Origin: Morinoia aosen
Lineage: Eukaryota; Arthropoda; Malacostraca; Amphipoda; Talitridae
Direction: 5' to 3'
NCBI GenBank assembly: GCA_030386875.1
Contig: CM059567.1
Location: 84,065,130-84,129,129, forward strand
DNA: 64,000 nucleotides
In this document: positions 14,101 to 64,000 of the stretch, in pieces
How the letters are laid out: each line of letters begins with the position of its first letter
How positions within the stretch are numbered: the stretch's first letter is position 1
Notes under the pieces: generated by a model
Seen by the model: the letters and a program-made list of their open reading frames with translations, nothing else
The model's database searches: none
Told to the model about the DNA's origin: nothing
Program-made: the position numbers and the translations under genes

Positions 14101-15640
14101 CCCTAAATTATTTAAATTTGGTCCAGGACTCAAAGTAAACGTTAACTCGCCTATACTACTTGAATTATATTGCCTTCAGCGCGAGTGAGAGAGAAACTCG
14201 AGGACAGAGAAACTTAAAAAAGAACTTGTCTTATTTCTGTCAAGACATTTTCCTTTCCGCAAATTGATTTTAAAATGGAGTTAGTTGATACGTATCGAAT
14301 AGAATCCCATTTAAATTATGAAGATAAAACTTCTCAAGACATGCTCTCATCTGTCACTAGTAAATATAACTGCGCTCAGAGTGCGTTTGAATACTTGGCT
14401 GAACTACTCGAGCTCCCGGTATTCGTATTGCTGAGCATGCCGGCAGGAGTTTCTTTCCGCACCGTCACATTGCTCAGTCCGCTTTCTTGCACGGAAATGT
14501 GACCTTTTTAGTTTCGTTAGATGATTTCAAAGTAATATCCTCTGTATATAATGAAATAAACTTCATTTTAGAATCGTTGTTCAATGTACACTTCAAAAGA
14601 TACACCGGTTTTAAACGACATGCAATCAGCATTCCCTTTGCAACTAGTGTGATATTAATGCTAAACTTTTTTCACTTATTTTTTCAGAATTTTTCTTTTT
14701 CATTTTTCTTTTCGTTTGATTAAAACATTTTGATCTGCATCTGACATCTGACTAGTTTTCTCTCGTTTCAGAGTTGATTATGACGGAGGAGGTCAAAACG
14801 TTCAAAAAATATATTTTTACTCATTGAATTTTTCAATAAGATAATAATTTCTGTATATACGTGTTTCTTGGCACTTATATTTTGATTCGGATGTGTAAAA
14901 AGCAAAATATAGCAAAATATTTGTGAACACACAACAAAAAGGAAAATACGTATACATATACAACATAAATAAGCAAAATATTGATATATCTACAACGAAA
15001 ATGACACACGAGGCTATCGTACGCGTTCAGCAGGATGCGCAAAGACGAATTTCTGCCACTGACCTGCTTTTCAGACATTAGTCTTCAAGTTCGTACCTAA
15101 CGTTACGAGGTGACTCAACGAAAAGCTGACTCTTTCATCTTTTTTCTTCGTAGTTAGTCCGAAAAACTTCACGACAGAAATTATCAACAAATAAACTTTG
15201 ACTAAATATATCATGGAAGATATGGAGAAGTTGGCCACGGAAGGTACGACACTGCACAGCTCCAAATTATTAAACAATGTTCATTTACCAAAACGGAAAT
15301 TTGTCAATCACAGAACTCAGTTTAATTCAACATGCCTTGAAAATGAATCTGGAGAAGGATCACCGAAGGAGCAAAAACTAAATACGGCAGCCATAATTTT
15401 ACTGAGCATAGGAGCAAGTCAGTAACAGAAGAAAAGAAAACATTTAGGTATGTAGTGCGGCCGGCACGGTTCGCCCTCATGGCGTAGCGGTAGGAGCCCG
15501 GAGTTTAGAAACGGGCCAGCGAGGTAACCCTCCGCACTCCTCCAGCTCTTCTCAAGAAGTATGAGCCAATACTCCTACCTTTGAGAGAAAATATATTTTA
15601 ATATTAAATTTAAATACCTTGCAAGGAAACTAAACGTTAT
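11111..15640. other. Intergenic AT-rich DNA, nothing recognised
   Basis: The 4.5 kb downstream of the NOS1AP-like gene holds many short open frames but none with coding character, conserved motif or paired splice signals. A short stretch at 15468-15530 contains a tRNA box-A-like string (TGGCGTAGCGGTAGGAG) without a matching box B. The (AC)GTAC/TCCTACCATTGTAC duplication near 13500-13530 is minor. Confidence 0.5.
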
Positions 15641-44000: not shown

Positions 44001-44060
44001 CTTGGGTTTGCATCCCTGGATCTCAGGATCTCGGATGATTTGGGGCTGCATTTTTCGGTC
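41036..44060. other. Intron interior, nothing recognised
   Basis: 3 kb of AT-rich sequence with no supported gene. A short (GAGAGAGG)n-like purine tract lies at 43420-43444. Confidence 0.5.
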
Positions 44061-44061
44061 C

Positions 44062-44366
44062 GGGAATTCCCGGCATTCTAAATAGCCTACATATTTCAAG
44101 GTGTTAATGAGAAAATAACTTAAAATCATGCTGTTTCCCTGGAATTTCCATATGCTAAATAATGTACATATTTCAAGATAATAGTGAAAAACATTAAAAT
44201 CATGCTGCTTCCCTGGAATTCCCGAGATTCTAAATAGTATAAATATTTAAAGATAATAGTGAGAAAATAATTTAAAAATCATGCTTTTTCCCATGAATTC
44301 CAGGGATTCTAAATAGTACACATATTTCAAGAGATTAGTGAAAACATAACCTAAAATCCTGCTTTT
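44062..44366. repeat. Four tandem units of about 76 bp
   Basis: Each unit runs GGAATTCCC..GATTCTAAATAG, then ACATATTTCAAG and TAAAATCATGCT..TTCCC. Units are about 44062-44139, 44140-44213, 44214-44292 and 44293-44366. Lying 170 bp upstream of a BED-finger hAT gene fragment, they may be the subterminal repeats of that element. Confidence 0.75.
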
Positions 44367-44912: not shown

Positions 44913-46965
44913 AGAAAAAACTGTTATAAAGAGTCAATTTATTGGAGAACCCTTCTCAGATTAAGGGTTTTCGGGCTAAATCGCCAAATCCTGAGATGGG
45001 CTTGGGCAGCAAATCACAATAGCATAAATGTAAAATATAAAGAAATCCCGGGGTGGCAAACCCTATTTCCAACCACCTTTCTTCAAACTACATCTCGGTT
45101 GTCTCAACGGCTTGACACTGACGTGTTCAGCGCGCCCTATAATAATATCGACTGCATTTCTACGGCGCCATCTTCCCCGAAACATTCTGTTGTGCGTCTG
45201 CATATGCTACTCATTATTCAGTGAGTGCAATTGAATTCAATTGATATATATATATATATGTTAATCATCTATGCTGTTACTGGAATTATACGGTTTTTAA
45301 TAATTGTTAGTTATATGGATGCTGTGATGCAGCTTTTTCAAGCTGTATCGTCAAAGTAGATGTCAAATTGCTGTGGGCGTTAAAATGTGCTGTTTATCAT
45401 ACTTAGTGTCGGTCCGACGAACTTGAACCTATCGAATTCCTGTGAATTTTTTCCGCTTCCAAAATCATCGCAGTCGTTAAAGCACGAGTCAGATGAAATC
45501 ATAAGGTGTTATGCAAAAATTGACAATATAAATGAAAGCGAGCTGATAAATATCAGCTGCACTTGTTAAACAGACTCGAATTTAGAACTATTCTAGATGT
45601 AAAACTATAAAAAACTCACACAACTTCAGGATGAAAAACGAGTGATGCAATTTCAGGAAGAATGTTTTCAAGTGACAGGGTTTTAAACTGAGAAAATTCT
45701 CTCGGCCAAGGCAAAGTTTATCTGCCAGAATAAGAGTATCTTTTTTCATAAGATGTTTCATTGGTATTAGTTCATCATCTGCATCTCCATGACCACCTGA
45801 ACACGCACTTCTTCTCCTACGTAAAGCTCTATCGACCTGTCCAGTTTTGACATGTTGGTCATATCCCTCACACAGTGCCAACCGAAAATAATAGACCAAA
45901 TGAATCTTTCGAACTATCTTGTTTAATCAGTCTCTCACAATTAAATCAGTACCCTTATACAATCACCAATCCTGTAGAAATTTTCGATAACGCTAACGAC
46001 GACAAAAAAGACAGTTATGATGAATTCTTCTGCCACTGTCAGTCAGAGTCACCGGTCACTTAGACCACGAATTTAAAAACGATTTAAAAAACAGCGATGC
46101 ATTCCAACCAAGTCGTCAGATTTCATTTTGTTTTTTCGACGCAATCTCACCTGTATTTGTCGCTACTCCAATCGACTCACGAAGCCCTTGGACTTCCAAC
46201 AATCCTCAGATGTTATCGCTACTGTCTATCCTCCCTAACTTTCAACTGTTTCAAGGGTTCAGGCAACTTTTTTCGCTCGGCCTCAAATTTAAACAGCATC
46301 TCTCCAGACCCATATTTCTCAGGCTTGACCTGGTTTTCACGTTTTCCCATCTTCCTTCTATCAGCTCTATGCCAGAAAGTATCTTGATCTTTTTAGAGGT
46401 CTCTAGAGATATCTACACCACATTACCCGTTGAGTCATAATTTAGATTTCCATAAATTTGGCTTCGCAACAAAATGATTTGGTTTTAGAGCCTTTCCTTT
46501 CACATCAAAACCTCGAACCATTACTAAACTATTCTGTTTCTCACTAATACATGATATTTTGCTGAACTTTTCATCAATTCGAAAATCACGGTTCAATAGT
46601 GGTCACTAGCTGGACACTGCGATTTTGCATTGCTTGATTCTAAGGAATATATCAGCTGCGTGGCGCCATCCGTAGCACTCGTAAATCCTGCAGAACTATG
46701 CTATAATAACAGGAATCATGTCAATGCTGAATGGCACACCATTACAAATACCTCCATACTGTTCAAACTTGTTTTAGTAGTGAAATGATGTTACTGTCCA
46801 TCACCTATTTTTCATTCGGCAATAAACTCATTCACCCTCCTTTTCTCTTTTTACCCTATCACAATAATATCACTGACTCTTTATAATCTTTTTCTACGTT
46901 ACAAGCTCTCGCATTAAAAAAACACTTATTTGTCTATGTCTCGCCACTCATCGATCTGGAAACTC
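44913..46965. other. Intron interior, nothing firm
   Basis: No gene supported. A (TA)n microsatellite lies at 45244-45260. Short open frames at 45387-46440 have no recognisable family. Confidence 0.45.
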
Positions 46966-47011
46966 TATGAGGAATTTAAAAACAAGGAAAATTCTATGGA
47001 ACTTAATCATA

Positions 47012-47059
47012 TTTACAAGGAAAACGTTTCGGAGTCCAGCTCCATCATCAGTTCGTAAA
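47012..47059 (-). ncRNA. Hammerhead-ribozyme-like motif (PLE 1, left arm)
   Basis: On the minus strand the core CTGATGA, a 4-bp stem II (GGAG/CTCC, loop CTGGA) and GAAA are followed by CGTT. The flanks TTTAC-GAA and TTC-CTT-GTAAA can form stem I. It is identical in core to the motif at 49231-49278. Penelope-like elements are known to carry such type I hammerheads. Activity is not shown. Confidence 0.65.
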
Positions 47060-47873
47060 AGTACAAATCATTATGTCTGCAATGAAAGGAAAGAAAATGT
47101 TGGATAAAGGCATTACAGGAAAACACGAAAAATTAAAAAATTAAAAACATGGTTCAGAAAAAATAAGATCGACAAGAGTGTTAGCTAGTTAAAATTTGCA
47201 ATGGGTAGGAACTGTCAGTATTATTGAGGGCCGGTTTTCTTTTAAAAATATATAGCGACTCTCAAATTCTAAGGTCACATTCATTTGATGCTGAATCTAA
47301 GATTTTGAAGTCTTCAACGGATATCGGTGCGTTGCATTTTTCCGCGTGATTACGTACTACGGAGTGTGATGGGTGGGCTAATTGGTTCCCGTGCGGAAGC
47401 TTCGACCCCGATGCTCGGCCGTTCTGATATAAACATTTCGCGACGTCATGCCGACGTACGATGATGTGCACTGCGCACAACTGTATGAATAAATCATAGA
47501 GGCTCGCATCTCCATCGGAAGACTATCCTTGCACCGGAAGAAAGAAGCGATCTTAAAATTATTAACTAGAGCTACGCGTCACTGAAGGTTTCGAAAGTAT
47601 TTATCACACAATAATTTCAACTTGTACGACAATTTTTCAGAAGGCGCCCCAAAATACGGGAAAGAGCAATATAAAAGATTTGTATTGTTTTCGTCAATAG
47701 TCTGCGATGCGTATTGTTTCGAGAGGAATTTTTTACTTGGCAAATTGACGACACCCAAGGGAAAACCGTTAGTTTTAAAATATGTGAGCGAAAATTCGAA
47801 TTCACAACGAACATTTTTGAAGGATGAACATATTTTATAACCTCTATTGATTAAAGTTTGAACACAATTAATT

Positions 47874-48704
47874 TTGAAGCTTCTTGAACAAAAACTGAGG
47901 AAGCTTGAGCCTAATCCTGTGAAAGTCGGTTTGCAGTGCTCAAAAGTTATGGGTTTAACACGCAAGATGTTCAGTACACTACTGGAATTATCTGTAACGC
48001 AATCCTTCTTTATATTTGCTGGCAAACTTTATAAACAAATAAACGGCCTAGCAATGGGGCTTCCGCTGGCTCCGTCCCTTGCCAACATTTTTATGTGTTA
48101 CCACGAAACAAAGTGGTTAAATGAATGTCCCTCTGATTTTAAACCGGTGTTCTATAATCATAATAGATACGTAGACGATACTTTTGTTCTATTCGACCAT
48201 CCATCTCATGTTGAACAGTTCTTGAACTATATTAATCATAAACATCAATCAATTAAGTTTACTGTAGAAGTTGAAAGGAATAACTCCCTTGCATTTCTTG
48301 ACTGTCTCGTGACGAGAGACGGAAATCACTTTCAGACCTCGGTGCACCGCAAACCGACTTTCACAGGATTAGGCTCAAGCTTCTTCAGTTTTTGTTCAAG
48401 AAGCTTCAAAATTAATTGTGTTCAAACTTTAATCAATAGAGGTTATAAAATATGTTCATCCTTCAAAAATGTTCGTTGTGAATTCGAATTTTCGCTCACA
48501 TATTTTAAAACTAACGGTTTTCCCTTGGGTGTCGTCAATTTGCCAAATAAAAAATTCCTCTCGAAACAATACGCATCGCAGACTATTGACGAAAACAATA
48601 CAAATCTTTTATATTGCTCTTTCCCGTATTTTGGGGCGCCTTCTGAAAAATTGTCGTACAAGTTGAAATTATTGTGTGATAAATACTTTCAAAACCTTCA
48701 GTGA
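47874..48704 (+). CDS. Penelope-like reverse transcriptase (5'-truncated)
   Basis: The open frame encodes 276 residues; the first ~20 are read through the inverted left arm and are not RT. Recognisable RT blocks follow: FAGKLYKQINGLAMGLPLAP with SLANIFM, then RYVDDTFVLF with the catalytic YVDD at 48168-48179, NNSLAFLDCLVTRDG, and the Penelope-type tail VHRKPTFTG ... FPYFGAPSEKLSYKLK. This order (GxxMGxPLxP, YVDD, FLD, HRKPTxT) is characteristic of Penelope-like elements rather than LTR or LINE RTs. The N-terminal third is missing, so it is not a full-length enzyme. It ends at TGA 48702-48704, beyond which the same frame continues into a GIY-YIG endonuclease domain. Confidence 0.88.
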   Translation: MKLLEQKLRKLEPNPVKVGLQCSKVMGLTRKMFSTLLELSVTQSFFIFAGKLYKQINGLAMGLPLAPSLANIFMCYHETKWLNECPSDFKPVFYNHNRYVDDTFVLFDHPSHVEQFLNYINHKHQSIKFTVEVERNNSLAFLDCLVTRDGNHFQTSVHRKPTFTGLGSSFFSFCSRSFKINCVQTLINRGYKICSSFKNVRCEFEFSLTYFKTNGFPLGVVNLPNKKFLSKQYASQTIDENNTNLLYCSFPYFGAPSEKLSYKLKLLCDKYFQNLQ

Positions 48705-48938
48705 CGCGTAGCTCTAGTTAATAATTTTAAGATCGCTTCTTTCTTCCGGTGCAAGGATAGTCTTCCGATGGAGATGCGAGCCTCTATGATTTATTCATAC
48801 AGTTGTGTGCAGTGCACATCATCGTACGTCGGCATGACGTCGCGAAATGTTTATATCAGAATGGCCGAGCATCGGGGTCGAAGCTTCCTCACAGGGAACC
48901 AATTAGCTCACCCATCACACTCCGTATATAGTACGTAA
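48705..48938 (+). pseudogene. GIY-YIG endonuclease domain of the Penelope-like element
   Basis: In the same frame as the RT, past the TGA, the sequence reads RVALVNNFKIASFFRCKDSL, then CVQCTSSYVGMTSRNVYIRM with AEHRGRS, and is open to TAA 48936-48938. The SSYVGMTSRN segment (YVG at 48825-48833) with its following R and H is the GIY-YIG core used by Penelope-like elements to cut target DNA. A 4-bp insertion (TATA, about 48925-48928) relative to the left arm shifts the frame before the end of the domain. The left arm lacks that insertion but has its own 1-bp deletion near 47395. Neither arm therefore encodes a complete domain. Confidence 0.8.
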
Positions 48939-49230
48939 TCACGCGGAAAAATGCAACGTACCAATATCCGTTGAAAACTTCAAAATCTTAGAGATTCAGC
49001 ATCAACTGCATGTGACCTTAGAATTTTAGAGTCGCTATATATTTTTAAACGAAAACCGGCCCTCAATAATACTGACTGTTCCTACCCATTGCAAATTTTA
49101 ACTAGATAACAATCATGTCGATCTTATTTTTTCTGAACCATGTTTTTAAGCTTTTATTTTGTCGTGATTTCCTGTAATGCCTATATCCAACATTTTGTTT
49201 TCTTGTATTGCAGACATAATGATTTGTACT

Positions 49231-49278
49231 TTTACGAACTGATGATGGAGCTGGACTCCGAAACGTTTTCCTTGTAAA
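49231..49278 (+). ncRNA. Hammerhead-ribozyme-like motif (PLE 1, right arm)
   Basis: TTTAC (49231-49235) pairs with GTAAA (49274-49278) and GAA (49236-49238) with TTC (49268-49270), with CTT bulged, giving stem I. The core is CTGATGA 49239-49245. Stem II is GGAG/CTCC (49247-49250, 49256-49259) with a single extra T. GAAA is at 49260-49263. Stem III can only be the self-complementary ACGT (49263-49266), with T49267 as the presumed cleavage position. So short a stem III, often needing dimerisation, is known from retroelement hammerheads. Confidence 0.7.
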
Positions 49279-49325
49279 TATGATTAAGTTCCTTGGAATT
49301 TTCCTTGTTTTTAAATTCCTCATAA

Positions 49326-52277
49326 ATTTGCGATTAAAGCAAACAACTGGCCCGTTCTGGAAACTCTGTATTGTCCTCACTAAATATCACTCCAGCCTTC
49401 TTATTTCTCAAATTAATGCTACACAAATGACGTAAATTTAACAATTATCCCTAAGAATTTTTCTTATCATACACTTTTTATTTAAATTGGAATTATTCGA
49501 AATCAAGCTTATTAAGGTGAAACGTTCTCATAATTCCAAACATACGTTTATTTCGAGATGTCATTACACTCCATTTATAATTCTGACATGTTAACTGTGA
49601 TTCTGACTTTGTTAATATCAATAACATTCTATCACGATTCATTAGATCTGCAATACAATTTACTTCAAATTATAATGATTGAAAAATACCGTGAACTGAT
49701 ACATAACGTTGTTAAAAATGTGAGAGTTGAAAATTTCCAATGAAATTGTTTTCTCTCAAAATGTAGAGCTACTTTCACAGCTCTGACCAGTTTCCATGAC
49801 AATGCTATGTGTGTACCGCTAGGGTGAACAATGAAAGCAATCGTTTCTGGGGAATTTATGAGCACATCTGACCAGAAAAACTTATCTGATGAACCATGGA
49901 AATCGAAGGACCAATTTATGAAGAAAGAATTGATCAAGTGATCAGTTGGCTCGATCTAAAATGTTCGAAGAATGAAGTACAACAACTTTACCGTGCGTTA
50001 ATAAGAAACTATTCGTTATATTATTTTCCAAATATTTGTTCCAACAACTTCCATAAAGTGTCATCAATTTAGTCGTTCGTGTTTCTAATGTTGAAGATTA
50101 TTGCAAAGTGTTCTTCTGGCGAACTGTTCAAATCTTGACATGTCTTACGTCTTTGTCTTCGATTTCTATATGAAAGAGTGTTCTCAAATGTTTAAAAATA
50201 ACTTTCTGCTGTACATTCGCATAGATAATAACTTAAGACACTCGCATGAACTCATCTCACAGAACATAGTGATATTTAGAAATCAGAAAAAAGTGCATAA
50301 ATGAGTAAAGTTGAAAACTCACAGCTACAAAATCTTAATTTACCGATTTAATTAACTAGCGAAGAAATTTACTTCTACATGTCAATCCATAACTTTCTCA
50401 GAATGTCAATTCCAACTTTCTGTGTAAATTGTGCTGAATTTTTTTTTTGCTTTGAGTCTGCTAGTTCATTGGGTTCCATCACCTACATGTATGAGATGAC
50501 TTTCTTCAATGATGAAATGAATGAAACTTTCACAGTATGAACATTGATAAACGAGTATTTCACATCTCACTTTTTTGACTGACATAGCAATGCAAGCGAC
50601 CCCATTTAGTGAATAAGTGGGAAAAATTGTACAAAGGCAGCAGATCTGCGCTGAGCGACGGCAGCCAAGAGCGCACTTCAGAAAATAGACAGACACTACA
50701 GCGTCATAAAGTCATAAAAACTAACAGCTCATTAACAAATCACGAAGCTTAAGGTCGAGCAGTATTTTCTTTCTCACTCGGAAATACATCAGCTCTCACT
50801 CTCTCTCTCTCTCTCTCTCTCTGCAAACTCGTTGACCCGGTTCAGCGGACAAAGCTTAAGCTTCATGCATGAAAGAAATCCCATTTACTCTAAGAATTGC
50901 AGAAGAAATTTCAAGTAAACCTATCCAACAAGCAATACGTAGTCGCAATCTGAAATTGAATACCATGTTTGCCTTCATTGATTTCTACTAGATTAAGTAA
51001 TTACTCAAACTTCCGTCCATGTAAATTTATGTTTTCAATAAAGTATGAATTTTTACAATAATAAATTTATTATTGTTAGTTATTATCAGTTATTATTAGT
51101 TATTAGTTATTTATTAGTTATTATTCAAATATTTGAAAGCCCTAAATGATTTTATACTTTAAATTATTTTTAAAATACCTTAGAACTATCATTGGGATTA
51201 TTCTCAAGTGAAAAGTTCAAGTACACAGTGTACACGAAAGTGGAAGTCCATTAATTTTTCGAAGTTTTCAATACGATAGATATAATCGTTTCGAGAATAA
51301 CTAATTTCCAATCAAAAAGAAGCACGAATAAAAATGATGCTCGCTACTTTTTACGAGAAAACTTTGAATATAAAATTCTTGCGTTTACAGCATTGTTAAA
51401 CACAGGTTTTTAGAAGCAACTCATGTTAAATGAAATTGAGAGTATCATTCCGAAGCATGAATTCGATTTTAGGGACGATAGTTGTTGCAATACTTTTCAA
51501 ATGCGGTTTCTCTTTTATCTCAACTACATACATTCCTTTGATATGACGACTGTCTCTCGGTTGTTTTGACTTCTGTACTCTGTTCCACTCTTCCTTTTCC
51601 TTTCGCCTCACAATTATGGATTGCTGTGCCGGACAAGGCGTATACAGTCTATAAAAAGCGAATCTTCGCTCACTCCTTGAGCAGGTTTAAAGAGTTTAAT
51701 AAGTCTTATTTTTTCATAAATAATAAGTGTGAAATGAATCTGCTCTCACCTTCTTGAAATAGAAAATTTAGGTCCAACAAGCCATCTGAGATCAATGAGA
51801 GGAAGTTCGCACTGTTCATTGTGGTAATAGAATGCTGAATTTCGTTGGCATTAAAATGATTTAACGACGCCAGAATTACCTACACTGGCAGTGAAAGGCA
51901 ATATAATTTAAATATATTTGCAAATTATATGAGATGTAAAACATTGCGTGACGCATGTATTTGCTCCTCAAAATCCTGTACTATCGACCTAGAGCTTTTT
52001 GACTTTCATTGTTTACTATATGTACTCTAATGCCATAAAAAGCATTTCTTGAAAGCGTATTAAATATCAAGGAGGCAGGCCAAAAAATTAATTCTCAGGA
52101 GAGAGATGCTTGAATTTTAGTGGAAAAGTCGGTATATAAAATGTTTGAGTTACAATCTCGCCAAATTTTCATCATTAGTGCACCCTTTCTCGTGTGTGCG
52201 GGCAATGATGGTGATGAACATCGATAGTAAGCTGGGGCGAGTCCGAGTCGCGTGAAATATTCCACTGCAAAAACCGT
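49326..52277. other. Intron interior with microsatellites
   Basis: AT-rich; no supported gene. A (CT)n microsatellite of about 13 units lies at 50797-50822 and a TTAGTTATTA-type repeat at 51058-51126. Confidence 0.55.
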
Positions 52278-52660
52278 GCTGTTTTATTAGCTTTCGAAGA
52301 TGGTCTAAGCTCTCGTATTGATCATGCTACGAAGCACGCAACAAATGAAGCTTTTAAAATAATAGCGCAAGAAAGTGCAATGACACAGAGTCTTGCTCGG
52401 GGACAAATTAACACACATAATATTGCAATTTTAACCAATTGGCGTAAAGAAAATCATTCGTACGGTTAAACGATAAATCTACTGAAAAGCGTAGTACTCA
52501 CAGTTTACTCGCTCTTTGCGTAATGACTGCAGAGAATACAGGCAGAAATTTCAAATTAGCGACCATTCGAGAGTTGTCTACGGTTTTTCACCCGATTCAT
52601 TATGAAAAGTATAATAGTTTGATCTTAGAAAACCAACCATTTTTTCTGGAAAATCTGTAA
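52278..52660 (+). pseudogene. Split coding-like frame of unknown family
   Basis: Frame one (52278-52469) encodes AVLLAFEDGLSSRIDHATKH, then EAFKIIAQESAMTQSLARGQ and ILTNWRKENHSYG before TAA. A second frame, overlapping from 52463 to TAA 52660, encodes RLNDKSTEKRSTHSLLALCV, TAENTGRNFKLATIREL and HPIHYEKYNSLILEN. Together they give about 128 residues of balanced, protein-like composition with a single frameshift at about 52463. I do not recognise the family. It may be a transposon relic or a decayed host gene fragment; no splice signals bracket it clearly. The cysteine-rich exon begins 96 bp downstream, but the first frame has no link to it. Confidence 0.4.
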
Positions 52661-52755
52661 ATGATTGCTACGATTTTCTGGCATGCCTTCACATAACGAT
52701 CGGCTATCAAATCATGCGATTCACTATATTTCGTTTTTTTTTACATTTGCTCCAG

Positions 52756-52888
52756 AAAGGCCACTTAAGAATGGTGCCACGCAATCAAGGAACAAAATGC
52801 GTACATAGTCTCTGTAACATGAGTTTCTGCCCACCACCGGAAGGTTGTGAAGGTCGCGAAAAGAAGAGGTGCTGCATTGATCAATGTG
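52756..52888 (+). CDS. Orphan cysteine-rich exon, WAP- or VWC-like
   Basis: A strong acceptor (pyrimidine tract then gctccag, to 52755) and a good donor (G|gtaagc at 52889) bracket 133 nt that encode 44 residues plus one base. The cysteine pattern is C-x4-C-x4-C-x5-C-x7-CC-x3-C-G (KCVHSLCNMSFCPPPEGCEG then REKKRCCIDQCG). The CPPPxxC...CCxxxCG end resembles a WAP four-disulfide core, in which the last cysteine would lie in the next exon, or half of a von Willebrand C domain. Such domains occur in secreted proteins. I found no signal-peptide exon or partner exon nearby. It could be one exon of a gene nested on the same strand in the SLC5A7 intron, or an isolated duplicated exon. Confidence 0.45.
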
Positions 52889-53516
52889 GTAAGCAGGAAA
52901 TGATTGAAGATGTGCCTACCTCGTGGTAGACTAAAGAAGTATAGCTCAACGAATTGGTTTAAAATTCTTGATATTTTGAATGCGAAGATCGTTTGACTGA
53001 TGGTATTTGATACAATGAATCGTACGTTTCAATTTACTTTAAATACAAAACATGAGTGAGCTACGTGGATGTTTAGTATAATAATATTCAGTTGTTTTCA
53101 AATCGAAATATTTTCTTGATATGGAAATAAAAAATACTTATTTTAGTGTGTTGAAGCATCTGTAAGCAGCTGACAAGACTCGAGCCACTCGAGTATAATT
53201 ACTGTGCGTGCATTTGTGAAGAGATTAAGTGAATATTCATGGCATGGGCCAGCTCTAAGGAGCATACGAAATAGTGAGTAACTTACGCTTTGCCTAGAAA
53301 AGAATCTTGCTCTCTCACATGAAAGTGAAATATGTGCATTTTTGGGGCTCATGTACAGGATTTTTTTGTTTCCGTCGCGGTTTCTGAAATTGTTTAATCC
53401 CTGAAATGCTTTCTCTACTGAGTACGAATACTGTTCAGTAATAAATATCGTTGTGATCATATTCCCTTTCACGAGGTGCCATTTAGTTAGTAGTAACGTG
53501 TAGTGATGTACCGATG

Positions 53517-53590
53517 TATCGGTATCGGTATCGGCAGTATCGGCCATTTTTAGTGGTATCGGTATCGGTATCGGTATCGGCAAAATCCGG
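53517..53590. repeat. TATCGG hexamer array, left end of foldback element
   Basis: GGTATCGGTATCGG-type repeats, interrupted by TTTTTAGT, then continuing in inverted orientation as CCGATACTTTACCGATAC (53591-53609). They mirror the array at 57168-57285 and are likely the subterminal transposase-binding sites. Confidence 0.85.
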
Positions 53591-54749
53591 CCGATACTTT
53601 ACCGATACTTTCCAAAAATACGAATTTTATCATTCAAATGAAGGTCATAAATCATGAAAGTAAAAGTATTTAACCTAATAATACCCGTTGTGTGTTTATT
53701 TATATATTTATTTGGTGTCTGCGTTGTGTGAGTTTGCGGTATCATGGATACCGAATTCCTCAGTGTAACATTAAAAGATGGCGTTTCCATGCATTTAAAT
53801 ATTTGACATTTTATCAGGATAGGTTTTGTTAGGATAGGATAGGTTAGCTTAGATTAGGATAGGCTAGGTTAGCACAGGTTAGGTAATACTGTCAGAATTT
53901 TTTCTCGGGTCCGCCTAGCTTAACGATGACATTGTCCATGGAATCTCCACGGGTCCTGCTACTATCTAATAATACCCTTGGTTTATTTGGAGTCCGCTTC
54001 TTCCATTTTCTTTGTCACGCTCATGAGGAGAGTTATAGTGACCGTATCTGTGATACGAGTTTCACCAGTGCTTAAGAACAAGAATATTTTTCATCACGAG
54101 CGCTGTTAGGATGAATACATTCGTTGGGCATCACATTTGGAAAATTTGTTCAAGAAAGTTAGTGAGTCCCGTAATTTTTGACGGGCTGTGCGTACTTGTA
54201 ATCAAATAAAGAGCCTATTCATACCTAGTAAATTAGATAGCTAACTGTTGAATTATAGCGTTCAATCAGGCCCGCTAACTGAATTCACTACTTTGAATTC
54301 CCGATGAGTCACGGTCATAACTGAAAGCTATGTAAAATGAATAGTTAAACCCTGTAGCTACATAAAATTTTTAAACCTTTACGACTAAACCTTTATAGTT
54401 TGACCTAATGTCCATATCCTAAAGTATGTGACAGGCTAACAAAAACCAAACCAATTTAATAAAGTTGGAGGTGCATTTGAAAGTTTTTGTGAATTTAATA
54501 TAGAAATTGCCGAAAATTCTATTTTTATTTAGCTTGTAAATCGCCAAATATTACGAAGCTAATAATTTATTTTAACTTAGCATGCATATCACCGTTCATT
54601 ACGAATCTTGCATTTTTCTTCTATGTTAAGATGTTTGAACAATTCACGAACAATCTTATAGTTCAATACATCTGAACGGGTCAGTTGATTGCTTTCATCG
54701 CAACTTGATGAATTTAAAAACGAGGAAAATTCCAATGAACTTATTCATA

Positions 54750-54797
54750 TTTACTAGGAATACGTTTCGGAGTCCAGCTCCATCATCAGTTCGTAAA
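54750..54797 (-). ncRNA. Hammerhead-ribozyme-like motif (PLE 2, left arm)
   Basis: On the minus strand: TTTAC-GAA, CTGATGA, GGAG-CTGGA-CTCC, GAAA, CGTA, TTC-CTA-GTAAA. All pairings of the motif at 49231 are kept although the cleavage-site base is A instead of T and the bulge differs (CTA instead of CTT), so changes fall in positions that tolerate variation. Confidence 0.7.
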
Positions 54798-55762
54798 ATT
54801 AAAATTCATTACGACTACAATAAAAGAAAAAATAAAATGTTGGATACAGTAATTAGAGAAGAAAATCACGAAAACAAAAAAAATCAAAACATGTCCCAGG
54901 AAAGTAAAATCGACATGATCTACTTCCAATTTACGATGGGTAGGAACTGCCAGAATTGTTGAGGGCCAGTTTTCATTTAAAAATATGTAGCGACTCTGAA
55001 ATTCTGAGGTCACATGTAGTTGAAGCCGAATCTAAGATTTTGAAGTCCGCAGAGGATATCGGTTCGTTGCATTTTACTGCGTGATTACGTACGAATTGTG
55101 CGAATTCATTCCCCGTGCGGAAGCTTCAACCCCGATGTTCGGCCATTCTGATATAAAAATTTTGTGCCGTAATGCCGACGTACGATGAAGTGCACTGCAC
55201 ACAACTATAAGAATAAATCAGAAAGGCTCATTCTCCATCAAAAGCGTATCCTTGTACCGGAATTGTATAATTTTATGGTTGCTTCATTTTTCCGGTACAA
55301 GGATACGCTTCCGATGGAGATGCGAACCTCGATCTCTGATTTATTTTTAACAGTTAAACAGTTGTGTGCAGTGCACATCATCGTACGTCGGCATGACGTC
55401 ACGAAATTTTTATAACAGAATGGTCGAACATTGGGGTCGAAGCTTCCGCGCGGGGAACTAATTAGCTTACTCCTCACACTCCGCAGTACGTAATCACGTA
55501 GTAAAATGCAACTAAATCTTAGATTCGGCTTCAACTGCATGTGACCTCAGAATTTTAGAGTCGCTACATATTTTTAAACGAAAACCAGCCCTCAAGAATT
55601 CTGATAGTTCCTACCCATAACATAATGTAACTAAATAGTAATCTTGTCGATTTTAGTTTTTCTGGGACATGTTTTAATTTTATTTTTATTTTTTTGATTT
55701 CCTTTAATGAGTGTATCCAACATTTTGCTTTATCTTTTATTGCAGACATGATGATTTGTAAA

Positions 55763-55810
55763 TTTACGAACTGATGATGGATCTGGACTCCGAAACGTAT
55801 TCCTAATAAA
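55763..55810 (+). ncRNA. Hammerhead-ribozyme-like motif (PLE 2, right arm)
   Basis: TTTAC-GAA (55763-55770), CTGATGA (55771-55777), GAAA (55792-55795), CGTA, TTC-CTA-ATAAA. One stem II base (GGAT versus GGAG) and one stem I base (ATAAA versus GTAAA) have changed and weaken the pairing, so this copy is slightly degraded. Confidence 0.65.
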
Positions 55811-57167
55811 TATGATCAAGTTCCTTGAAATTGTCGTTTTTAAATTCTTCATCTTATAGATGGTTGCGTGTTTGCGGATATTTTCGGTTTCGGGGCTTAC
55901 CGAATTTTAATATTTTCTTTCGCCAAAGTATGTACTCGTATTTGGTGTGAATAACACGAAAATGACAATCCTTTTTTGGAGAAACTATTGTTTTGGTCCA
56001 CTTTTGGAGCCAGTTGCTATTATAGCTAGTCTACATTACGTTGCAATACGATTAGAAACACATATCTATTGAATGGATTTCATTTTGTTGTTTTTCTCAA
56101 CAATATAGTTAACATAGCAAGAGCATTTTATTTTTCACAATCGGAAACTTTTTTGTCAATATTTTTGTATTATTAGATATATAAGGAAATAATTTTATTA
56201 TAACTCCCATGTAGGAGTTATAATGATTTTATTTTAATACAAGTGTGCACGGCCTGCCAAAAATGGGATTCAATACTTTTCATGAACGAATTTTCAAGAT
56301 GTAGATGATAAACAAATACAGTATATCCATCCTAACAGTCCCCGTGATGAAAAATATTTTTCGCACCATTGAAACTCGTATCACAGATACGGCCATTATA
56401 ACTTTCCTTATGAGCGTGAGTGACAGAGAAATGGAAGAAACAAACACCAAACAAACAAACCAAGGGCAAGGGTATTATTAGGTAGCAGCATGACCCATGG
56501 AAATGCCGAGGACAATGTCATCGTTAAGCTAGATGGACCCATGGAAAAATTCCGTCAACATTATCTAACCTATGCTATCCTAATTCTATGTCGTGACTCG
56601 CACCGCCGCAAAGCACGTTCACGACGCGAAGGCCTAGCGATCGTCATTACATGGTAGCACCTGCGGTTCTTGTAGGCCCTACACCACTAATGCGTTTTCC
56701 ACTGTTGCCAATACGTAGAACGGAAAGTCGGGTAGGTTTAAAATGTTTATGCCGAACACATATGCACAAGAACACACAAAGCTCTCTTGACTCGGAGTTC
56801 ATCTCCGGTGACAAATCACCATTACTCAAAAATGATAACTTTGGGCACAGCTATTCACCAAATTACTATATTTAACTTAATGTCTTTTAATTATTCAATA
56901 TGGCCTGAAAGCTGCACGAAAGCGACATGGTTAGGAAAATGCGCAAGTTACGGCGATCACAACAACCTATCCAATACTACTAACCTATCCTGATAAAATT
57001 TCAAACATATCATTGCATGTACAGACGATCTTTCAATGTTACACTGTGGAATTCGGTCTCCGTGATACCGCAAACTCAGACATCCTATGTTTCTTAAGAA
57101 GCGGACACTGAACTAATACATAAACTAACATACAACGGGTATTATTAGGTTAGATGATTGTAAAAGT

Positions 57168-57285
57168 ATCGGTATCGGTAGTAGTATCGGTCAAAGTATC
57201 GGTATTTTCAAGTATCGGAGTATCGGTATCGGTCAAAAAATGGGTATCGGTATCGGTATCGGCCAAAAAAATGGTATCGGTACAT
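57168..57285. repeat. TATCGG hexamer array, right end of foldback element
   Basis: At least twelve TATCGG hexamers, some contiguous and others separated by CAAAAAA-type spacers, extending to the right terminal inverted repeat. It is longer than the left array. Confidence 0.85.
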
Positions 57286-57298
57286 CACTAGTAACGTG

Positions 57299-58700: not shown

Positions 58701-60567
58701 CAGGGTGTTTTTTTTTTACTTTGAACAATCTTCGAACTTAGGTACAAAAACTCAAAATAAATCGATTTTCATGAATGACAAAATGTCCAAACTTCTTTAG
58801 TTTTCGAGTTATAGTTACTTGAAGAATATTAGAACTTCAAGTAGGATTGCACGCGCGCACCATTTTTAGCACAACCTTTGATAGTTGAAGAGGTTTTTGG
58901 GCCCCACTAATGTAGTATTTTTGTAATTTCACAATTAAATTTGCGTGTACACGTTTTACAAATAAGAATAAATTGTCCTAAATGAGTAATTATCAATTAT
59001 TATCATGTAAGCTAACCATCAATCAGTAAGCATTGCAGGGCACAGGTAAAAAACATAATCAATACAAACTTTAATGTAAGAACTATAACGAAAGAACAAA
59101 CTTGAATACAGATTTATTACAACAGTTACTCGAAATGGCCTCCATGAACTTCAACACATTTACGACATCTAACAGCCAGTGAGCGCCTTACAGATTGAAA
59201 CACGCCAGGCATTTCCGTAATACGGCCAGCTGAGTCCACAATGCGTCCAACCAGATCCTGTTCCGATTCAACAGGAGTGGCATACACGAGGTCTTCCATG
59301 GTTCCCCACAAGAAGAAATCCAGTGGCGTCAAATCAGGTGATCTAGCTGGCCATGCTACAGGAGCACCTCTGCCAATCCATCGGTTTTGAAATTGGTTAT
59401 TCAGGAACAGGCGTGTTTCACGAAAGTAATGTGCTGGCGCTCTGTCATGCTGGAACCACTTCGCCTGCGTGTCTCCAAGGGCACGTCCTCCAGTAGTCCA
59501 GGCAAAACTTTGCGTAGGAAGATGGTGTACGCAGGTCCCGTGAGAGGAGAAGGTAATAGGTACGGACCAATTAAATTATTGCCAATAATGCCTGCCCACA
59601 CGTTGACACTAAATCTGTGCTGGTGACTATTAGGCTGAATAAAATGAGGGTTATTTCCAGCCCAGTAATGATTATTGTGACGGTTGAAAACCCCATAACG
59701 ACAGAAATAAGCTTCATCTGTGAAGAGAATAAGTTTTGAGAACCCGCGATTCATTCTTTCCTGTTGCATTAACCTCTGGCAAAACAGCATACGAGGTTCA
59801 AAATCACCTGGCATGAGCCCTTGCACTGTTTGGAAATGGTACGGATGTAATTGCTGTCGATGTATTGCCCTCCACACAGTAGTATGGTTTCGCAAGCCAA
59901 GACGTTAAGCAGCTGCACGAGTGCTGGTTCGTGGATGTTGCTCAAAGTATTCCACAATTCTATCCTCCTGTGGATGATGGCCGCGCCCAGCATTCCCTCT
60001 GTTAACGTTGAAGCTGCCGGTGTCACGCAATCTCGTATGCAGAGTAGCAAAATACCGGAAATCAGGCACTTCGCGCCTAGGAAACCTTTCTCTGTACATC
60101 CTCAAAGCGAGCCTACCATTTCCGCCTGCAGCTCCATAAATCAAATGCATGTCTGCCTTCTCAGCATTGGTAAATCTTTCCATGGTCACAGTGCAACGGC
60201 GTGTCAACAAATGGCGAACTGATACTGCAACACGGGCGTTCCAGTAATGTAGATTGTTAATAATAAATTTTATTTCATTATTTCAGTTTCACATTGCATC
60301 TTGAAATCTCGTCGTTGATTACATGGAATGGATAACCCATAATGATATGAGAAAAAATGCTTTAATTGTATTCGACAATCTCGAAACTAACAACTTTAAA
60401 TAACAATTGGTGTGCGGCCCAGTTATAACATGCACTTCTAAACATGCTTTGCGACGCCATAACTCGAAAACTAAAGAGTTTTGGACATTTTGTCATTCAT
60501 GAAAATCGATTTATTTTGAGTTTTTGTACCTAAGTTCTAAGTTTGTTCAAGGTAAAAAAACACCCTG
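58701..60567 (-). mobile_element. Tc1/mariner-type transposon, nearly complete
   Basis: 1867 bp flanked by TA (58699-58700, 60568-60569). Terminal inverted repeats of about 112 bp begin CAGGGTGTTTTTTT and share ACTTAGGTACAAAAACTCAA and TCATGAATGACAAAATGTCC. A transposase gene lies on the minus strand between them. The structure is intact and the TIRs are well matched, so the insertion is fairly recent, although the gene is already damaged. Confidence 0.92.
59126..60210 (-). pseudogene. DDE transposase (DUF4817/Tc1-mariner-like), two lesions
   Basis: The gene starts at the ATG near 60210 (or the internal METs at about 60183) and reads FTNAEKADMHLIYGAAGGNG, a helix-turn-helix of the DUF4817 type, then RRLRDTGSF-like and WRAIHRQQLHPYHFQTVQGL. 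The catalytic core follows: LILFTDEAYFCRYG (first Asp), VNVWAGIIGNNLIGPY, FQHDRAPAHYF (second Asp) and RSPDLTPLDFFLWGTMEDL (third Asp, spaced about 36 residues from the second). The end is CRKCVEVHGGHFE at 59126. An in-frame TAA at 59905-59907 lies between the HTH and the core, and a frameshift occurs near 59470. All three acidic residues remain. The likely role was cut-and-paste transposition of its own element. Confidence 0.85.
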
Positions 60568-60769: not shown

Positions 60770-61952
60770 AATTTTAGAGTAATCAAACAAAAAACTTGCG
60801 AATGCAAATTATGTTATTATTTTTAACTAAACCGGTATATATTTATTAATATACTGCGTGACCGGCACTTTGTTGAACAAACTTTAACATGAGGTCGAAA
60901 CTGTTGAAATGAACACTTGTTACTCGATAACAGCGTGGTCGAAACGGCATGGTCGGAGAGTTACAAGGACTGGAAATTTGAAACGCATTGGAGAAAATGT
61001 CGAATTTTGAGTGAGAGGAAAATGAAATGTAAAAGCTAGTAAAGCATGTTTTTATTATGAACGCAGGAGATAGAAGTACCGCCTTACTTGTTGTAAACAC
61101 ATAAACTAGATTCTCAAATTAGGTATGGTATATAACTCAAATTAGGCAGGGTATAGAACAGTATGGTATATAACAGTATTGTCTATAACAGTATGTTATA
61201 TAACAGTATGTTATATAACAGTATGGTATATAACAGATATGGTATATAACTGGAGTCAAATTAGGTAAAGTATGTTTTACATAACTCCAGTCTGCTGCGA
61301 TGCAGCGTTCAGACGCGTGTGCGATCGGACGCGATCGGAAACACCAGGATTTTCACGAATTCTTGCCGAGGCTTGAACAAGTTTACCGATGAGGTCTTCT
61401 TCGGAATGCATCGGTGTTTTTGGTACACTGAACTATCTAGTAGCTTAATTTCAGGAAATTTTGGTGGCTATGTGAGGGGCCTCGTCCAGAACATCTTTTT
61501 AAATACCTCGTCAAAATTAAAATTTGTTTCTTGTGGTCTTAATAATTTAAGCTGTTAATTTGCTCCTTGTGTTCAGGATAAAAATACTTTCGTAACTTCT
61601 ACATTTCATTTCCATGTCACTCTCAATCAAAGTTCGAGTTTTTCTCCAATGCATTCTTAATTTAAAGTTCTTGTAACTCTTTAGCGAAACATTTTTGACT
61701 ACACGGTTAGTGACGGAAAAGTGTTTATTTCAGCGGTCCTAACCCTATATCAAAATTTGCTCAACAAAGCGCGTGTCATCCTCTATTTATAAATGATGAA
61801 ATAAAATTTAAATACATAAATTAAAAAGTTAAAATTTAAAATTAAATTTTAAAAACAAAAAATTTATAAGGTGTGGATTAACATTTACATAGATGGACAG
61901 CTTTCATATTCGATGATCGGAAAAACGGTAATCGGAACCTTTTTTTCTGCAG
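60770..61952. other. SLC5A7: Intron interior before SLC5A7 exon 3
   Basis: AT-rich. Apart from the tandem repeat at 61140-61250, no coding frame, transposon end or RNA gene is recognised. Confidence 0.5.
61140..61250. repeat. Tandem repeat, about 6 units of 15 bp
   Basis: The unit AACAGTATG(G/T)TATAT is repeated about six times with point changes, bordered by AAATTAGGTA(T/A) strings at each side (about 61117 and 61258). Non-coding. Confidence 0.8.
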
Positions 61953-62108
61953 GAGGAGCTTTCTTCGCCCGTCAGATGCGAGAGGCCGGCTACGTGACCA
62001 TGCTCGATCCGTTGCAGCAGAAGCTGGGCAAGCGCATGGGCGGTCTGCTCTACTTCCCTGCACTCATGGGCGAGTTGTTCTGGTCGGCTGCAATTTTGTC
62101 CGCTCTGG
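61953..62108 (+). CDS. SLC5A7: High-affinity choline transporter, third coding exon
   Basis: This 156-nt exon completes Gly (G|GA) and encodes [20 protein letters not shown], then [20 protein letters not shown] and [12 protein letters not shown], ending in phase 1. The segment [32 protein letters not shown] is nearly invariant in animal CHT1 and covers the end of TM3, the cytoplasmic loop and TM4. The acceptor has a long pyrimidine tract (cttttttttctgcag) and the donor G|gtgagt is strong. The transporter needs about nine more transmembrane segments, which must be encoded beyond the right edge. Confidence 0.95.
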
Positions 62109-64000
62109 GTGAGTCCGACACATTTATGCAGAGGACCTCTCATTGTGTGATTCGTAATCTATTCCAGTAGTCTGAAGTGGCGCTGAGCGGTGATGCAGTT
62201 TTAAAGTCGATGATCAATGTTTAATATTGCTGCGAGTATTGTCAGTCGCAATTTTGTAATTCAGAGAAAGTCAAACTGGCAACCAACGAATACTTTCACT
62301 TCTTTGCTTCCGTAACCTGACACTTTCATTAATTCAGGGTGAATTAGTAATATTTCTATCACTAAAGTACGTCTTCATTACTTTGAAGTTGTTTTCACCC
62401 TGCAGAGTAAATGTGATGTACATATACCGTACTCTTGAATGTGATATACGTGTGTACCGTAAACATCGTGTGAACTGTTGGGATACAGCTACTTTCTTTC
62501 GATCTTTTACCACTATGATGATTAGTCTTTTACTCGGTGAAAAATTTTGCAGGAATACCAACAAAAAATTCATTAGAAAAAATTTTATCAGCTAATTTCC
62601 CGGAAAGCTCTTGTAACCTATCTAAAATAACATTATGTGCATCGTTATAAACAAGCTTTATCCATGTTTAAAACACTTGTATTTTCTACTCGCTAGCTTC
62701 CCTCTCTACCTACGTCCCCACTCATGACTATACACACTTCCTCAGCAAAATATTTAGACCTATTTTCATCCCTAACAATATGATAGAGTGGACTGTTTAT
62801 TCTCAGCAGTAATACATTCAGTGGGGGAAATAAATATTCGTATACCAAGAAATTATCTACCAAATTCAGATAGCAGTACACTGATCCGTATGGATGAATG
62901 ATTCAAAGCCATCAGCTGTAAATTTTACACTATGCTTCGATTTGTTACGAGCTGCTCATCATCACTTAACATACACAAATGAAAATTATTCCTGAATGAA
63001 ATGTAAAGTTCTTACCCTTTAAAAATCATAGGTACATAGTAAATCAGTATTCTGGTGCATTTTCTAAGTGCAATATATTCCACTTTACTAGGCATTAATG
63101 ATTTGAATTACGGGTTAAATACTTTGGTTTTTAATCTCCGACAAGATTAGTTTTAGTCAGTAATTTGCACCCATGACCGATTATATTTCTGGGAATTTTT
63201 TTTTTGCTTCAGCTCACATTTATTTTATTGTGTTGTGTAGTAACTTAAATGTGATTTATTTAGTGTTTTAATCGACATCATTGTTTCATTTATACCCTAA
63301 TTTGAATATTCATTTAGAAACTTTGCAATTTTGTTCAATATTTTTTGCAGATAATGACTGATGATGAGCTGAGGCTTGAAATGCTGCATTAAAATGCTTT
63401 CAAAATTCTTGTTTACTATTACCTTCGTGGTAAAACTGCTTAACGTAAAAAATTTTATCAATACAATCTCTGAGAAACTGAAATAAAACTAATTGACAAA
63501 TTACTTGTATTCAAGAGTAGGTAAGCACAAGAGGTAAGAAAAATCAGGAAATTTGACTATTAAAAGAAGTTAACACACTCTGAGTTGAATTTTTCTTAGT
63601 GATGGTGGTAAATGCAGGAATTTCTAAATTGCTCCTGTAATGCGTGTTAAAGTTGCATTTTTTATGTGATGCTACTGCCGGCAGCATCAGAAGTCAAGAT
63701 TCCTATGTTTTAGATCATTAATGTTCCACCGTTGTTGCCAGATGTCAATGTCCATTGTTTTGGCTATCAATATTCCACCGTTGTAGTCTCAGTAATCGAT
63801 GTTTCATTCTCCTGCCAACCAGTTCCCAAAAATACATATAATGCTTTAATAGTTAGTCTTCATTATTTTCTCACTTATTCTGCCACCAAGCATCTTAATA
63901 CAAGTATTTTAGCGATTAGTTTCGTTTCAGTTTATCAAAAATTTGTTTAGTAAAGAATTTCTTGGTGTACGAACACTTGTTTCCCTCCACTAAATGTTGT
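62109..64000 (+). other. SLC5A7: SLC5A7 intron (partial)
   Basis: Intronic sequence to the window end. No further SLC5A7 exon, and no transposon that I can identify. A weak hammerhead-like string at 63357-63395 is discussed among the rejected items. Confidence 0.6.

Follow-up and report, generated by a model that had tools for sequence, protein, structure and literature searches.

The four 48-nt motifs at the outer ends of two palindromes in the window (the whole 64,000-nt stretch of Morinoia aosen DNA analysed here) are, as far as sequence can identify them, hammerhead ribozymes (HHRs) of the minimal type I kind already published for Penelope-like elements (PLEs). Such minimal type I hammerheads of PLEs were reportedly described by Cervera and De la Pena in 2014 and by Lunse et al. 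in 2017. Judging from its target-site duplication and outward tails, each palindrome is a single PLE insertion, and the PLE copies in the window are best explained as insertion remnants, not working units. We assign a probability of roughly 0.9 to the full account, which combines PLE HHRs, insertion remnants in the window and the spread of palindrome 2 by a hAT-like carrier (Table 1).

Table 1. Coordinates of HHR motifs, PLE insertions and the hAT-like carrier within the window
Feature	Position	Strand	Remarks
Palindrome 1, one PLE insertion, tails outward	46967..49355	.	arms 46967-47939 (-), 48344-49323 (+ complementary stretch)
Target-site duplication TCTGGAAACTCT, left copy, 12 bp, palindrome 1	46955..46966	.	
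Target-site duplication TCTGGAAACTCT, right copy, 12 bp, palindrome 1	49356..49367	.	
HHR motif 1	47012..47059	-	left end of palindrome 1; exact core 47024-47051; H17 = T; 53.6 bits
Open frame with partial reverse transcriptase, Pfam RVT_1	47862..48701	+	E 5.5e-08
HHR motif 2	49231..49278	+	right end of palindrome 1; exact core 49239-49266; 53.6 bits; H17 = T at 49267
Long-tail extension, 32 nt, palindrome 1 right end only	49324..49355	+	beyond ACGT, the two tails measure 57 and 89 nt
8-bp duplication GTAACGTG, left of hAT-like element	53493..53500	.	
hAT-like DNA transposon copy carrying palindrome 2	53501..57290	.	ends TAGTGATGTACCGA / TCGGTACATCACTA; about 3.79 kb
8-bp duplication GTAACGTG, right of hAT-like element	57291..57298	.	
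Target-site duplication ATCTTATAG, left copy, palindrome 2	54653..54661	.	
Palindrome 2, second PLE insertion, inside hAT-like transposon	54662..55850	.	long tail left, short right
Target-site duplication ATCTTATAG, right copy, palindrome 2	55851..55859	.	
HHR motif 3	54750..54797	-	left end of palindrome 2; exact core 54762-54789; H17 = A; 49.4 bits
HHR motif 4	55763..55810	+	right end of palindrome 2; exact core 55771-55798; H17 = A; 49.7 bits
Fifth, decayed HHR motif, other PLE family	63348..63398	+	29.8 bits, E 5.7e-06 (covariance model built here)

The exact core (CTGATGA-N14-GAAACGT) is present at all four places where the first-pass annotation had seen a common 48-nt layout, and a looser core pattern returned the same four places in the window versus 0.11 expected from dinucleotide shuffles. 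All four motifs combine CUGANGA and GAAA with an H17 other than G (T, T, A, A), and stem III is reduced to the self-complementary ACGU in the window cores; for motif 2, sequence predicts cleavage 3' of T49267, with an ATG at 49280. The layout had been thought to include GGAG-loop-CTCC in every copy, which is wrong for motif 4, where GGAT faces CTCC; this damaged copy also has a C-A mismatch, the sole imperfection in an outer stem I, in agreement with the earlier statement that stem I is fully paired in three of the four. The host genome (1.99 Gb) yielded 4,132 cores versus 9 for the backward-read pattern; core conservation in the genome samples is imposed, because the patterns demanded CTGATGA and GAAACGT, and was freed partly in one search only. 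With stem I and GAAA fixed and the next four bases left free, CGT was found in 89 of the 100 listed places (counted by eye). The proposal of a Penelope-type element with a hammerhead-type motif, in which ACGT stands in for stem III, is supported.

Covariation among genomic copies, set as a test by the first-pass annotation, proved strong. Among 52 non-redundant HHRs, 77.0% of stem cells were paired versus 52.7% in shuffled sets (0/500 shuffles as high), and the covariation score amounted to 0.542 versus 0.209 upon shuffling (reached in 0/500) and at most 0.244 when slid. Pairs I.1, I.2, II.2, II.3 and II.4 exceeded all 2000 shuffles; pairs I.3 (50% paired) and II.1 did not rise above the shuffles, and the count of pairs changed on both sides was no higher than chance, being reached by 263/500 shuffles. 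By our own count, 107 distinct motifs comprise eight stem I types with full complementarity, and compensatory change backs stems I and II. The suggested check against the Rfam hammerhead gave no match at any threshold tried, neither at the gathering cut-off over the whole window nor at E<=10 over 46900-56000 or 49215-49300, which we take to mean that the Rfam models do not score the form that lacks stem III. With a covariance model built from genomic copies, the four window motifs reached 49-54 bits (E values between 6.7e-12 and 3.7e-13), which is not independent proof because the 49229-49280 copy had served to train the model and the other three closely resemble it.

These data also bear on the possibility that the motifs are inert relics, never acting and kept through recent common descent alone. 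Such a view fits individual window copies, and stem II is damaged (GGAT) at the right end of palindrome 2 in 15/15 loci (L009-L023), while a subfamily with GAAATGTG (H17 = G) accounts for 5 of the 100 listed places, again by eye. However, the eight fully complementary stem I types and the shuffle tests speak against it, as does an H17 other than G in 106/107 distinct motifs (T 78, A 17, C 11, G 1), and we consider this explanation unlikely, albeit not negligibly so. Compensatory changes and the non-G H17 suggest that the fold was under selection, in the founding elements at the least. A point against the account favoured here is that, for the anole PLE, passages of PMC11167929 state that HHR mutants left in vitro insertion unimpaired.

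The two palindromes noted before are real. Both arms of such a palindrome would begin at the 3' tail of the element and meet head-to-head, and an HHR would therefore come to lie near each outer end. For palindrome 1, we gave 47940-48343 to the right arm because the reverse transcriptase frame is on the + strand. The first-pass annotation had interpreted the HHR at each outer end as a means of trimming transcripts from either strand, which would make the palindromes functional units. In line with this, the cores of both HHR copies are intact in palindrome 1, and tails-out arrangements prevail among pairs under 3 kb (19/20, though 15 of the 19 represent a single hAT-borne arrangement) and under 5 kb (12/17 and 13/18). 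Yet tails-out is a common PLE insertion form, head-to-head being called the most frequent arrangement in passages of PMC3846280, and the spread of palindrome 2 is accounted for by its hAT-like carrier. Moreover, minimum-energy folds of palindrome 1 have 49/49 HHR nucleotides paired outside the HHR on both strands, and those of palindrome 2 have 47 and 48 of 49; by inference from these predicted folds, their partners in palindromic RNA would be provided by the other arm. The trimming role is not supported by these findings, and we regard it as quite improbable. When arms were folded alone, three of the four were without a hammerhead; the right arm of palindrome 1 formed stem II and the outer stem I, plus extra core pairs. 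Cofolding was predicted to give an extended intermolecular duplex, which does not speak for catalysis.

hAT DNA transposons create 8-bp duplications and have short terminal inverted repeats. The carrier of palindrome 2 is alike in its duplications and terminal repeats and differs in that the window copy holds a PLE palindrome with two HHRs. Of 15 loci with about 1-kb spacing, 13 were taken for comparison, and in every one of them the alignment spans almost the entire 3.8-kb unit, in three cases in two pieces. Terminal inverted repeats together with perfect, mutually different 8-bp duplications were found in 10/13 loci and likewise in the window copy, the ends being not found in two of the remaining loci and non-matching in one. 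The longest open frame overlapping the window copy comprises 151 aa. Junction copies of the hAT-like unit numbered 1,111 versus 0 for the control, and 1,434 of the 4,132 genomic cores bear the signature of the transposon-borne palindrome, so that neither activity nor selection can be deduced from raw ribozyme counts. We infer that palindrome 2 entered a hAT-like transposon once and that the transposon then carried it, one ribozyme damaged, to over a thousand sites. The idea that the ~1-kb palindrome is a mobile unit of its own was ruled out by the shared flanks and the hAT-like ends. In the passages and abstract openings that made up our literature search, amplification of HHRs through a DNA transposon was nowhere reported. 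The passenger status of palindrome 2, the tails and both target-site duplications were absent from the first-pass annotation.

The tandem anatomy is seen in one unit (L163), whose two HHRs have identical flanks and lie 2,965 bp apart; an ATG 9 nt after ACGT opens an 838-aa reverse-transcriptase ORF (Pfam RVT_1, E 1e-11). A reverse transcriptase, as expected for PLEs, is thus encoded in L163 and the window frame, and tandem units, duplications of variable length and a tail were found as well. For the GIY-YIG endonuclease domain, the intact L163 ORF gave no Pfam score at E<=0.1; the motif YVGSTYRALFMRVAEHAGRS was read by eye. The presence of type I HHRs in animal repeats might suggest retrozymes, which are reported from several invertebrate phyla in passages of PMC7229834. 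Retrozymes are non-autonomous, consist of short tandem repeats bearing canonical type I HHRs, and propagate through circular RNA. Of eight same-strand pairs under 5 kb, a single one, spaced 381 bp, falls within the 150-450 bp of retrozyme direct repeats, whereas six lie 2,645-2,970 bp and one 3,990 bp apart; stem III, and with it the canonical HHR, is absent, and the tandem unit encodes its own reverse transcriptase. Retrozymes are therefore extremely improbable. As to PLE HHRs, each ~2.97-kb unit of a tandem array has a ribozyme a few nucleotides upstream of its start codon, and the motif is therefore repeated along the tandem transcript. Going by what has been published for this family, two motifs paired via the self-complementary ACGU, or aided by a PLE protein, would cleave just upstream of each ORF; the anole HHR required protein (PMC11167929).

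Another observation of this study is that one tail exceeded the other by 25-43 nt in 14/14 accepted palindromes (perfect duplication of at least 12 bp; two further candidates were set aside). Both tail sites are used at loci with one exact motif, 10 being long, 7 short and 8 unclassified (n = 25). This coupling of a long and a short tail could, as a tentative conjecture that we hold to be possible yet doubtful, reflect a coupled two-ended integration reaction in which reverse transcriptases obligatorily start at two sites 25-43 nt apart, and every tails-out palindrome would therefore receive one long and one short tail. Here, a staggered cut would prime one cDNA per strand, with two reverse transcriptases perhaps docked in file on one RNA or, alternatively, working on two RNAs held together by the hammerhead ACGU dimer. 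We make no claim for a model of leading and trailing polymerases, in which the short-tail arm reaches further inside: it does so by 13-40 nt in L134, L135, L136 and L025, whereas palindrome 1 shows the reverse, its long-tail arm exceeding the other by ~400 nt. Across 15 palindromes, a rough script returned central loops of 0 to 630 nt (<=15 nt in 7/15), but its value of 231 nt for palindrome 1 disagrees with the 404 nt obtained by other comparisons. According to passages of PMC11167929, some steps of PLE integration still await validation; the one-long-one-short tail rule represents a concrete, testable constraint on Penelope integration.

Passages of the review PMC7761336 attribute thousands of minimal hammerheads to many genomes of animals, where most are scattered and their role is unknown. 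The minimal type I hammerheads of PLEs described there share with ours the type I core, the pLTR position, the missing stem III, thousands of copies and tandem units; unlike these, about a third of the cores counted here bear the signature of one DNA-transposon-amplified copy, and near pairs, among those listed, are mostly inverted instead of tandem. Adineta vaga Penelope, as portrayed in passages of PMC3846280, has a low copy number, and the terms "hammerhead" and "ribozyme" are absent from the main text of that source, which sets it apart. Common to both are head-to-head inverted pLTRs, 8-10-bp duplications, a tail that is optional at one inverted pLTR, and a pLTR including 12 (with tail 22) ORF codons. 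Poseidon of the green anole (PAc), for which passages of PMC11167929 report no strand difference in the start of reverse transcription, whereas in our data a single insert differs between its ends, has in common with our elements an HHR adjoining the ORF start, internal reverse transcriptase start sites that leave a tail, and cutting and extension of both target strands. The PAc ORF starts at stem II according to the same passages, while here the ATG follows ACGT by 9 and 13 nt in the two cases read.

A pattern search of the window recovered all four 48-nt hammerhead ribozyme (HHR) motifs where the first-pass annotation had placed them, each with an exact CTGATGA and GAAA core. The four-base stem II it described holds for three of them; the fourth has three bases. 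All carry ACGT in the stem III position, followed by H17, the predicted cleavage base (T, T, A, and A), and then by the three-base inner stem I. The Rfam hammerhead check came out negative, with zero matches over the window at the gathering cut-off, or around the motifs at E ≤ 10. A looser core occurred 4 times in the window versus 0.11 times in shuffles. In the host genome (1.99 Gb searched, 29 contigs), the exact core was found 2,067 + 2,065 times versus 5 + 4 times for the reversed pattern, and a variant with 6–13 free bases between the core parts gave 2,522 extra matches versus 40 in the control. Among 107 distinct motifs, drawn from the loci fetched to that point with the hAT-borne ones counted in, H17 was T in 78, A in 17, C in 11, and G in 1. 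When the bases after GAAA were freed, 5 of 100 places listed showed a subfamily reading GAAATGTG, with G at H17 and without the self-complementary ACGT, presumably dead ribozymes that were spread. By their sequence, the four window motifs look like genuine representatives of an already described kind of ribozyme.

Covariation was present among genomic copies. The three pairs of stem I were 78% paired over the 107 distinct motifs; 2000 shuffles averaged 50% and never exceeded 58%. For a non-redundant set, 217 motif instances were reduced to 52 by removing motifs with the hAT-linked flank and near-duplicates of motifs already taken. Here, 77.0% of stem cells were paired (52.7% shuffled, at most 53.9% slid) and 110 cells were changed on both sides (46.0 shuffled); neither value, nor the covariation score, was reached by any of 500 shuffles, the exact strength being uncertain because the sample comprises the first contigs listed and its related families are not independent. 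The observed level of further pair types was reached in 21 of 500 shuffles; the number of pairs with both-sided change (7) did not exceed the shuffles, 263 of 500 reaching it. Taken singly, pairs I.1, I.2, II.2, II.3, and II.4 each lay beyond all 2000 shuffles, and I.3 and II.1 did not exceed them. Given the variety of stem I types among distinct motifs (GAA/TTC, GTA/TAC, TAG/CTA, TGA/TCA, GAG/CTC, and TTA/TAA among others), there is little doubt that the HHR fold was under selection.

Features in the window (bare coordinates) and in the host genome
Feature	Location	Strand	Details
Weak HHR-like match	14764-14815		10.9 bits, E 2.9, covariance model from genomic copies
Fragment, with this match following it	14403-14815		resembles endonuclease end of Penelope-like element (PLE) by eye; Pfam search without match
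Four tandem copies of ~78-nt unit	44035-44344		63-80% identity to reference copy
Palindrome 1	46967-49355		perfect 12-bp duplication on flanks; ATG at 49280
hAT-like element	53501-57290		DNA transposon copy, ~3.8 kb
Palindrome 2	54662-55850		9-bp duplication on flanks
Broken ORFs	59126-60282	-	resemble Tc1/mariner-type transposase by eye
ORF	61853-62170	+	resembles choline transporter exon by eye
Decayed fifth HHR	63348-63398	+	GAGC-TGAG-GCTT family, another than the four; 29.8 bits, covariance model from genomic copies; tail resembles tandem-family tail by eye
Same-strand HHR pair	G000 C1:1068785/1069166		spacing 381 bp; sole listed pair in retrozyme-repeat size range
Tandem array	G000 C2:2811618-2822147		three same-strand HHRs, period 2,965 bp; inverted HHR upstream
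Tails-in HHR pair	G000 C2:24333301/24334712		spacing 1,411
Tails-in HHR pair	G000 C2:26239899/26241305		spacing 1,406
Intact ORF, one tandem unit	L163:77-2593		838 aa, RVT_1 match
Accepted inserts, duplication at least 12 bp	L132, L135, L136, L139, L142, L143/144, L145/146, L147/148, L149/150, L151/152, L153/154, L155/156, L161/162, palindrome 1		14 inserts

The tandem-array unit L163 contains two HHRs with identical flanks. Its ORF includes a putative GIY-YIG part (YVGSTY...AEHAGRS, assigned by eye) and its ATG lies 9 nt past ACGT, so that the predicted cut would fall 8 nt upstream of the start codon. In the two window palindromes, inverted PLE insertions with two HHRs each, the outer end of every arm is the tail 3' of the HHR. 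This tails-out orientation was shared by 19 of the 20 adjacent pairs closer than 3 kb among the first 100 exact-core places listed (0.58 pairs expected by chance), 15 of the 19 having palindrome 2 spacing and not being independent. In two later 100-place listings, 12/17 and 13/18 pairs closer than 5 kb were tails-out, the others being 8 same-strand pairs (six spaced 2,645–2,970 bp, the rest 381 and 3,990 bp) and 2 tails-in pairs. The latter, the only two among the matches listed, have near-equal spacing and are perhaps another amplified arrangement.

The proposal that the palindromic layout lets transcripts from both strands be trimmed is left unsupported by the predicted folds. At minimum energy, 49 of 49 HHR nucleotides of palindrome 1 RNA pair outside the HHR on both strands, as do 47/49 and 48/49 in palindrome 2; we infer that their partner would be the opposite arm. 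Arms folded singly (300 nt) formed stem II and outer stem I in one of four cases, the right arm of palindrome 1. Cofolding two copies gained 8.2 kcal/mol over two monomers; the predicted structure was an extended duplex between the molecules, not a pair of hammerheads linked through ACGU, and therefore gives no evidence for dimer catalysis.

From the sequence comparisons, palindrome 2 is a passenger of the hAT-like element. All 15 listed exact-core loci with its spacing have common flanks on both sides, and among 15 larger loci the 13 chosen for this spacing align to nearly all of 53.5–57.3 kb; L043 aligns partly, and L042 over 95 bases only, elsewhere in the window. The element ends in TAGTGATGTACCGA and TCGGTACATCACTA. 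Perfect 8-bp duplications, all different, were found at 10 of the 13 hAT-like loci (of the other three, two were without ends found and one was mismatched), and the window copy has GTAACGTG on either side. A search of the host genome that tolerated up to 3 mismatches gave 1,111 copies of the right junction, and 0 for the control. Of the 4,132 genomic cores, 1,434 continue into ATTCCTA, a sequence characteristic of the palindrome 2 insertion, and a share of these 1,434 could be free copies belonging to that PLE subfamily; the first 100 such places listed held 31 pairs, 31/31 tails-out at 1,003–1,053 bp. The damaged stem II of the right end (GGAT) recurs in 15/15 loci (L009–L023), and the right-end motif therefore spread in an already damaged state.

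Tail length was compared in 27 tails-out pairs, 2 in the window and 25 fetched: 12/12 from the first of the two later 100-place listings, one of these pairs marking the extremities of a larger array, 10/13 from the second, the 6–13-free-base listing, with the three widest left out, and 3 from the exact-core listing. In all 14 accepted inserts with a perfect duplication of at least 12 bp, the two tails differ by 25–43 nt, an outcome with a probability of at most 0.5^14 (~6e-5) under independent end choice. Five inserts have 9–10 bp duplications: palindrome 2, L025, L026, and L140 fit (differences of 27–48 nt), and L137, with tails of 52 and 30 nt, does not show the usual site pair. Two candidates for the longer class were set aside, L134 as consisting purely of AT repeat (here, too, the tails would be unequal) and L159/160 for a 16-bp flank match away from the arm divergence; this match does not abut the element, and a shorter apparent duplication lies beside it. 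The remaining six pairs (L024, L027, L133, L138, L141, and L157/158) were left unclassed. Both sites are in use among 25 single-exact-motif loci (tail long in 10, short in 7, unclassified in 8), some of which share flanks; given their inverted arms, L050, L063, and L070 may represent palindromes whose other motif has decayed.

The novelty is modest and has two parts: HHR amplification through a DNA transposon, and the rule for tails. The palindrome layout is already known, since Adineta Penelope (PMC3846280) shows the same head-to-head arrangement, with one of its inverted pLTRs bearing a tail. A difference between the ends of one insert was not found stated in the passages covered, the original Penelope papers aside. 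For an anole PLE, PMC11167929 describes two adjacent RT start sites, with both strands cut and extended and no start-site difference found between strands, whereas in the host-genome inserts the two ends differ within one insert; as read from genomic copies, the tail rule goes further than the anole findings.
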